Assembly (NCBI GenBank): GCA_016218345.1
Contig: JACREH010000041.1
Coordinates: forward strand, 1-40,884
Source of the DNA: Gammaproteobacteria bacterium
GTDB lineage: Bacteria; Pseudomonadota; Gammaproteobacteria; Acidiferrobacterales; UBA6901
Reading direction: 5' to 3'
Length of the DNA: 40,884 nt
Part shown: piece by piece, positions 10,495-35,984 of the stretch
How positions within the stretch are numbered: position 1 is the stretch's first letter
Layout: every line of letters starts with the position of its first letter
The notes under the pieces: generated by a model
Database searches by the model: none
The model's input: the letters and a program-made list of their open reading frames with translations, nothing else
Told to the model about the DNA's origin: nothing
Position numbers and translations under genes: made by a program

Positions 10495-10604
10495 GTCATT
10501 CCGGCGAAAGCCGGAATCCAGGTTTTGAAAAATCATCGGTCGTCAGGCCGATTCTGGATGCCGGCTCCCCGTTCTAGCCGGGGACAAGCTTCGCTGGCAT
10601 GACG
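10495..10604. repeat. GTCATTCCGGC-family double-hairpin repeat, copy 1
   Basis: The left hairpin is ATTCCGGC-GAAA-GCCGGAAT. A centre containing ATCGGTCGTCAGGCCGAT follows. The right arm is GGATGCCGGC...GCTGGCATGAC, whose loop is enlarged by a module of about 25 nt with its own hairpin (CCCCG-TTCTAGC-CGGGG). Copy 2 at 35875-35984 carries the same module inverted in the opposite arm. It lies in the leader of hppA. Confidence 0.85.
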
Positions 10605-10611
10605 GCATTAC

Positions 10612-13999: not shown

Positions 14000-14022
14000 G
14001 GCCCGGGAAACCGGGCCTTTTT
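14000..14022 (+). terminator. Intrinsic terminator of adk
   Basis: GGCCCGG-GAAA-CCGGGCC followed by TTTTT, 20 nt after the adk stop: 7-bp perfect stem, stable tetraloop and T-run. Confidence 0.9.
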
Positions 14023-14037
14023 GTTCTAATATTGTAG

Positions 14038-14287
14038 GGAGCCTCTGATTAAGTCAGAGGTTCCCGTCCGGCCAGGAGGGCCGGGCATTTTTCAAACACG
14101 CAAGTGTTTAAATATTAAAGCAAGACGAACGAAGCGCAGCGAAGTAGGGCTACTTCTGTGAAGCAAAAACGAAAACCACGTTTTTCGTTTTGTGACGTAC
14201 AGGATGTACTAATGCCGCGGGTGCATGGATGCGCGGGAGCGGCCGTGTCTGAACAAGCCAGGGAGGGACTTGTTCAGACCTTCCTTA
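14038..14287 (+). repeat. Modular hairpin repeat, copy A (about 250 bp)
   Basis: Chain of hairpins: CCTCTGA/TCAGAGG at 14042-14060; CCGGCC-AGGAG-GGCCGG at 14068-14084; AAACAC/GTGTTT near 14095-14110; a CAAAACG-rich stem near 14164-14191; GTAC-AGGAT-GTAC at 14197-14209; GCCGC...GCGGC at 14214-14243, with an inner loop ATGGAT; GTCTGAACAAG/CTTGTTCAGAC at 14247-14279. It is nearly identical to 18938-19186, with a few substitutions and a one-base indel. It fills the gap between the adk terminator and hemB. No open frame of note is inside. Confidence 0.9.
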
Positions 14288-14288
14288 G

Positions 14289-15335
<1,047 letters not shown>

Positions 15336-18912: not shown

Positions 18913-18937
18913 TTGAGGTACTGCGCTTGGCGGCTAG

Positions 18938-19186
18938 AGAACCTCTGATCAAGTCGGAGGTTCCCGTCCGGCCAGGAGGGCCGGGCATTTTTCAAACACG
19001 CAAGTGTTTAAATATTAAAGCAAGACGAACGAAGCGCAGCGAAGTAGGGCTACTTCTGTGAAGCAAAACGAAAACCACGTTTTTCGTTTTGTGACGTACA
19101 GGATGTACTAATGCCGCGGGTGCATGGATGCGCGGGAGCGGCCGTGTCTGAACAAGCCGGGGATGGACTTGTTCAGACCTTCCCTA
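18938..19186 (+). repeat. Modular hairpin repeat, copy B (about 249 bp)
   Basis: Nearly identical to 14038-14287 over its full length. The differences seen are a C for T and G for A in the first hairpin, one A fewer in the A-rich stem, and a changed loop in the last hairpin (CCGGGGATGGA instead of CCAGGGAGGGA). It is inserted between pstS and pstC. Its GGA-loop strand is opposite to pst transcription. Confidence 0.9.
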
Positions 19187-19190
19187 GTGC

Positions 19191-29790: not shown

Positions 29791-29860
29791 TGCGTTCTCC
29801 AAACACTAAATTAAATTAGGCCGCCATCCCGGTCTCTACCCTGGACATTCGGCAAGTTAG

Positions 29861-30012
29861 GGAACCTCCGAGTTATGTCGGAGGTTCTCTTGGCACAGGG
29901 ATGTGCCAACGTTTTTCAAACATACACCGTGTTTGAAAAACGAAGCAAAGCGAAAATCACACTTTTCGCTTTGCGCGTCTGAACAAGCCATGGATGGGCT
30001 TGTTCAGACCCT
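29861..30012 (+). repeat. Modular hairpin repeat, short variant C
   Basis: It starts with GAACCTCCGA/TCGGAGGTTC (29862-29887) and ends with GTCTGAACAAGCC/GGCTTGTTCAGAC around ATGGATG (29977-30009), the same terminal modules as 14038-14287. Between them are TTGGCAC-AGGGAT-GTGCCAA (29890-29909), GTTTTTCAAAC/GTTTGAAAAAC and CAAAGCGAAAA/TTTTCGCTTTG. The middle modules are related in form but not in sequence. It sits between envC and ctpA. Confidence 0.8.
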
Positions 30013-30036
30013 CATATAACCAAATTCTAGCCCTTT

Positions 30037-34740: not shown

Positions 34741-34824
34741 GTACAGGGATGTACCAATGCCGCGAGCGCAGGATGCGCAGGAGCGACCGGCTCTGCGGCG
34801 AACAATATTATTCTGGTCTTTCCT
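34741..34824 (+). repeat. Modular hairpin repeat fragment in the gpsA leader
   Basis: GTAC-AGGGAT-GTAC at 34741-34754 and GCGC-AGGAT-GCGC at 34766-34778, then a tail GGTCTTTCCTAAGC resembling the end of the 14038 element. The first 12 bases match the published CsrA SELEX consensus RUACARGGAUGU exactly when read as RNA. The fragment starts 88 nt before the gpsA ATG. Confidence 0.7.
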
Positions 34825-35830: not shown

Positions 35831-35874
35831 GTTTTTTCCCACCCCCGCCACCTAAAGGAAGTCTGATTACTGTC

Positions 35875-35984
35875 GTCATTCCGGCGAAGCTTGTCCCCGG
35901 CTAGAACGGGGAGCCGGAATCCAGGCCTTGAAAAAACATCGGCCGTCAGGCCGATTCTGGATGCCGGCTTTCGCTGGCATGACG
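35875..35984. repeat. GTCATTCCGGC-family double-hairpin repeat, copy 2
   Basis: Same arms and centre as 10495-10604, but the 25-nt inner module (CCCCGGCTAGAACGGGG) is now in the left hairpin and inverted, while the right arm is short (GCCGGC-TTTC-GCTGGC). It lies between gpsA and mshE. Confidence 0.85.

Follow-up and report, generated by a model that had tools for sequence, protein, structure and literature searches.

On balance, we favour the view that a family of miniature mobile elements spreads putative CsrA dimer sites, and that those copies which are transcribed by read-through serve as distributed CsrA decoys. The element was analysed in a 40,884-nucleotide stretch of gammaproteobacterial DNA (contig JACREH010000041.1; hereafter the window), and it looks like a composite MITE, with terminal inverted repeats, YTAR duplications and a fixed hairpin order. 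In the host MAG (1.85 Mb, 80.6% complete), BLAST returned 64 pieces at approximately 25 element places, plus solo modules. This genome-wide count, together with the inverted-repeat ends and the 4-bp duplications, bears out the dispersed, mobile-looking repeat proposed in an initial annotation of the window. The terminal repeats, the target duplications, a second repeat nested in two of the copies and the wider distribution of the family had gone unnoticed there.

In the orientation that presents GGA, the slot order is YTAR-HP1-HP2-HP3-HP4-(optional HP6+HP7)-HP5-YTAR, where slot HP3 is CAAACAC..GTGTTTG and slot HP4 is GCAAAACGAAAA..TTTTCGTTTTGC (Table 1). GGA loops occupy slots HP2, HP5, HP6 and HP7 and are absent from HP1, HP3 and HP4, except for one copy in genome G007, whose left end has an unrelated alternative fold. 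The four GGA loops ascribed to copy A by the initial annotation are all present, namely AGGAG (14074), AGGAT (14201), ATGGAT (~14225) and AGGGAGGGA (14260); the two predicted CsrA-type sites of its HP6+HP7 module are 22 nt apart. Across 30 element copies, GGA lies in or beside the loop of 57 of 153 hairpins, on 33 stem sequences. In HP5 of subfamily I, the GGA strand has a C-A mismatch, which counts against the explanation that we prefer.

Table 1. Positions, in the window, of the element copies, the solo module and their hairpins.
Feature	Position	Strand	Description
Copy A	14034..14288	+	full element; flanks GTAG/TTAG, a near-match of the YTAR target duplication
HP1, copy A	14037..14065	+	left terminal hairpin on left inverted repeat GGGAGCCTCTGA; loop without GGA
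HP2, copy A	14066..14086	+	predicted CsrA-type hairpin GGCC-AGGAG-GGCC
HP3, copy A	14094..14109	+	AAACAC-GCAA-GTGTTT; 3' side truncated in A and B
Nested second dispersed repeat, copy A	14119..14165	+	GCAAGACGAACG..GAAGTAGGGCT; only in A and B
HP4, copy A	14166..14191	+	AAAACGAAAA-CCACGT-TTTTCGTTTT; without GGA
HP6+HP7, copy A	14197..14243	+	GTAC-AGGAT-GTAC, linker, GCCGC-[GTGC-ATGGAT-GCGC]-GCGGC
HP5, copy A	14247..14279	+	hairpin at the right terminus, loop AGGGAGGGA; right inverted repeat forms its 3' arm
Copy B	18933..19187	+	exact CTAG/CTAG duplication
HP6+HP7, copy B	19096-19142		module
Copy C	29857..30013	+	short form; no HP6+HP7 module
HP1, copy C	29862-29887		
HP2, copy C	29890-29909		AGGGAT loop
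HP3, copy C	29910-29942		
HP4, copy C	29945-29974		
HP5, copy C	29977-30009		ATGGATG loop
Solo HP6+HP7 module	34741..34787	+	variant outer arm; between secB and gpsA

Copies A and B, whose starts lie 4.9 kb apart, are 97% identical, with direct repeats of 134 nt (97%) and 123 nt (98%), as their earlier description as near-identical implied. Copy C was said to keep both terminal hairpins and to exchange the middle ones. HP1 and HP5 are indeed retained (88% over 40 nt), HP2 is replaced by another GGA hairpin, TTGGCACAGGGATGTGCCAA, and the module is absent, but HP3 and HP4 are still members of the family. The gene contexts were also given correctly: hemB for copy A, pstC/pstS for copy B, ctpA/envC for copy C and secB-gpsA for the solo module. 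Folding of the GGA strand far exceeds that of shuffled sequences (z of -5.7 for copy A and -12.6 for copy C). The window contains 14 ANGGAN-loop hairpins with 4-bp stems, where 2.5 are expected (100 simulations, maximum 9), a 5- to 6-fold excess, and seven of the 14 fall in the 2% of the window that is occupied by elements.

Other repeats share this DNA. The repeat nested within copies A and B is one instance of a second dispersed repeat, GACAAGACGAACGCAGCGCAGCGGAGTAGGGCTTC, which occurs as 1-6 tandem copies often ending just upstream of an ATG start (loci L022, L023, L024, L028, L029 and L030, on host contigs C92, C100, C3, C78, C41 and C83), and has relatives in other genomes, e.g., nested in the module of L092. 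An inverted pair of a further repeat, AGCCGGAATCCAGG..CTGGATGCCGGCT, is located at 10498-10610 and 35868-35969, 25 kb apart and 91-93% alike.

The ends of the element are those of a MITE. The terminal inverted repeats are GGAACCTCTGA..TCAGACCTTCC, along with two other end types, and the host alone has all three kinds (GGAACCTCTGA.., GGGAACCTCTA.. and CAGGTTGTTGAAAAA..). Each kind brings matching changes in HP1 and HP5, with HP2-HP3-HP4 and the GGA loops unchanged. The 4-bp YTAR target duplications are exact in 16 of 22 copies, compared with 6.0 by permutation, the 22 being those copies with both ends in a list drawn up by hand. The same design is found in G007, which belongs to the same order but to another family, and in G136, G391 and G325, of the same class and another family; replacement of stems and ends with retention of GGA was seen in three lineages. 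The carrier G325 also has an IS with a DDE_Tnp_1 transposase, similar ends (GRGACCTCTGAA) and a TATA duplication, while no DDE_Tnp_1-type transposase was found in the host MAG (80.6% complete). YTAR is, we assume, the target of the IS5 group, and from the ends we infer that an IS5-type transposase mobilises the element.

The HP6+HP7 module, GTGCAGGATGCAC-N-AATGCCGC-(hairpin)-AGCGGC, also occurs solo, in tandem arrays and inside other repeats. The scan pattern for it constrained the first hairpin alone, which makes the inner loop a free test: it contains GGA in 46 of the 48 modules with the outer arm that were selected in this way. When modules were parsed blind to the loop letters, 86 of 92 had GGA in both loops, on more than 20 stem sequences; shuffles gave 0-2, and most of the non-GGA exceptions look like chance parses. 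A(N)GGAN is present in HP6 of 86/88 modules and in HP7 of 86/88, nearly always with C-G closure, so that the loop consensus is C-A(N)GGAN-G, where N is free and only the positions tolerated by CsrA vary. The two sites are 21-23 nt apart in 80 of 87 modules. The stems, by contrast with these fixed loops, vary with compensation (92 double-change cells versus 19.6 on shuffling, in a module set that was itself picked by pairing). Random loops among other copies, which the initial annotation had named as an argument against its CsrA reading, were thus not what was encountered. G-U pairs and A-C mismatches on the GGA strand stand at 34:15, although related sequences weaken the p value; the excess of G-U favours the GGA strand as the RNA strand.

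The published rule for CsrA includes the SELEX consensus RUACARGGAUGU, an ANGGAN hexaloop, the CsrB repeats CAGGA(U/A/C)G, and bridging of two sites at 10-63 nt with an optimum above 18 (PMC7652899). The module has the A(N)GGA loop with a C-G closing pair, and its spacing lies inside 10-63 nt and above 18; by sequence, both loops and spacing conform to the CsrA/RsmE rule. Three clusters, L055, L066 and L078 (G007:C22, G008:C41 and G024:C195), pack several GGA-hairpin modules into approximately 500 nt of a single strand. Among these modules are a variant with the outer arm GTGTCGC..GCGAC and the CGACTCCATGGATGGAGGAGGTAGAG type, and the number of sites is CsrB-like.

The pattern scan detected the module in Acidiferrobacterales, Ca. 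Muproteobacterium, deep-groundwater gammaproteobacteria, Ferrimonas, Mariprofundus and a Spirochaete. A covariance model of the module, R1, was used to search samples of genomes from the class and the phylum, and found it in 91 of 370 and 31 of 398 genomes, respectively; csrA, scored by PF02599, was present in 323/370 and 198/398. In the phylum sample, own genome excluded, the module occurs in 30 of 198 csrA-positive and 0 of 199 csrA-negative genomes (Fisher p = 3e-10), a co-occurrence which is confounded by phylogeny and amounts to a failed refutation rather than a proof. All 48 genomes of the class sample with at least five modules (own excluded) have csrA, as does each of the 20 genomes that were traced through module loci, including a Spirochaete. 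Within the class sample, and leaving the own genome aside, five sparse carriers have no csrA match; for at least three of them (G214, G373 and G402), csrA is present in sampled genomes of the same family. No csrA was found in the host MAG either. This was not taken as true absence, since contig C81 ends inside alaS, and in G001, G002 and G005, the three relatives examined, csrA lies approximately 1.7 kb downstream of that gene, which places the expected csrA beyond the contig end. The genomes of the closest relatives are mostly without the element, and plasmid and phage collections gave no match to the module. One carrier, G007, has twelve CsrA-family matches and is also rich in these elements. 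The complete 5.4-Mb genome G574 gave ten R1 matches, weak (32 bits) and closely alike, which may belong to a distinct family of repeats with a similar shape.

Relative to the neighbouring genes, which were called by a simple codon-usage script, the GGA strand is sense to both in 7 cases, sense/antisense in 7, antisense to both in 9 and antisense/sense in 2, i.e., without bias. The mixed orientation pointed out initially is therefore real. No promoter-like site was found in copy A, which sits just after a terminator, and an intrinsic terminator lies downstream of only 2 of 127 modules. With unbiased orientation and no promoter found, a fixed cis role is unlikely, and mobility is favoured over it, as the initial annotation had argued; RNA of the element, where made, would come mainly from read-through. 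The copies on contigs C28 and C27 are probably transcribed, because each is preceded by a stop codon and followed downstream by a GC-rich hairpin with a T-run. The end of an element often coincides with a stop codon, which a YTAR target (TAG, TAA) would lead one to expect.

A stand-alone sRNA gene of the CsrB/RsmZ type was rejected on the missing promoter-like site in copy A, the scarcity of terminators and the lack of an Rfam CsrB/Rsm match, and a reading as attenuator or sRNA gene was likewise rejected for most copies, with a terminator after only two of the modules. At the gathering threshold, no Rfam family was detected in the window, and 14 module loci gave no match except two tRNAs and one Xoo5. 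A weak match to anti-hemB (E value 0.013) combines the upstream terminator with HP1/HP2; we ascribe it to chance. Modules adjoin or interrupt tRNA-like sequence in L106 (2200-2700), L158, L095 and L088. In L106, three 144-nt tandem units of module plus hairpin/T-run follow a tRNA gene (Rfam tRNA match 2622-2694), and in L127 (3919-4133), from a Lysobacterales MAG, a module begins 45 nt past an Rfam Xoo5 sRNA match.

The main rival to the decoy reading is a selfish mimic. On this view the loops are kept because the element profits from CsrA binding, e.g., through protection or silencing of the read-through RNA that spans it, and the CsrA pool of the host is hardly affected on balance. The absence of orientation bias, the insertion at stop codons, the recent near-identical copies and the retention of GGA loops while ends swap between transposon types all agree with it. 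However, both GGA loops are also kept in modules that have no terminal repeats, whether solo or in tandem arrays, which fits a role independent of transposition, and we regard the mimic as unlikely, if still worth serious consideration. Far less room is left for the copies as local cis-regulators, each a UTR switch through which CsrA controls the neighbouring gene. Copies do lie near the ends of genes, and some fall between a stop codon and a terminator, but half are antisense to the gene they touch, the neighbours (hemB, pst, ctpA/envC, gpsA) are unrelated, and the scarcity of the element in the closest relatives speaks against it as well; we consider this very improbable.

REP elements are read by their stems, and REPs flank rayt genes. 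If the present repeats were of this kind, moved by a Y1 (RAYT) transposase, the GGA loops would be the mark of that enzyme and not of CsrA. Y1_Tnp genes are present in 21 of 23 carrier genomes tested, and inverted module pairs occur. Only one module was found, though, among 32 scanned stretches around Y1 genes (up to ~5 kb, some overlapping), the stems of the module vary while the loop is fixed, and the composite has two-sided 4-bp duplications, whereas single-strand transposition makes none. The REP/RAYT reading is thus largely refuted for the composite element and is improbable overall.

In the decoy mechanism that we propose, a miniature mobile element with IS5-like ends and YTAR duplications would move by DNA transposition, often into stop codons. 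One strand, transcribed chiefly by read-through from neighbours, would fold into a string of hairpins, of which four slots are predicted high-affinity sites of the CsrA/RsmA type and HP6+HP7 would serve a single CsrA dimer as a preformed platform of two sites. Each transcribed copy would add CsrA sites and so act as a small distributed decoy; in sense orientation it may give a CsrA-bound 3' UTR. More tentatively, and with less confidence than in the decoys themselves, the family could be viewed as a cross-phylum class of mobile DNA with a two-site CsrA platform as cargo. By moving, it would alter how many CsrA sites there are and where they lie, its jumping sponge sites tuning or parasitising the global Csr regulon. 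CsrA is among the most connected bacterial RNA-binding regulators, and its activity is set by the number of competing sites. If the proposal is true, transposition lets the number of CsrA sites evolve, a large set of unannotated intergenic repeats is accounted for, with R1 as a sequence model to find them, and whether repeats buffer global regulators becomes a direct question of binding.

No description of such elements was found in the open-access literature searched, and the known systems each share part of the design. Like CsrB/CsrC, RsmX/Y/Z, Aln1a-c of Alteromonas (PMC5864184) and Pf1-3 of Pseudoalteromonas (PMC11882849), the element has strings of hairpins, A(N)GGA loops and the spacing of a CsrA dimer, and the module arrays L055, L066, L078, L210 and L211 resemble these sponges. 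The sponges, however, are single-locus genes with their own promoter and terminator, whereas the element is mobile and dispersed, ends in inverted repeats and duplicates its target. The candidate CsrA-binding RNAs TwoAYGGAY (RF01731) and Bacillaceae-1 have similar paired GGA-loop hairpins (PMC4333381), but differ in taxa and structure and have no reported mobile-element anatomy; identity with TwoAYGGAY was rejected, as its covariance model gave no match up to E 10 on 14000-14320. REP/BIME sequences are likewise intergenic hairpins, sometimes in inverted pairs, but the element does not flank Y1 transposase genes, conserves the loop and not the stem, and has two-sided duplications. With IS5-type MITEs it shares terminal inverted repeats, a short YTAR-like duplicated target and many near-identical intergenic copies, and to these it adds CsrA-type loops in fixed slots and ends that are exchanged between transposon types around a constant core.
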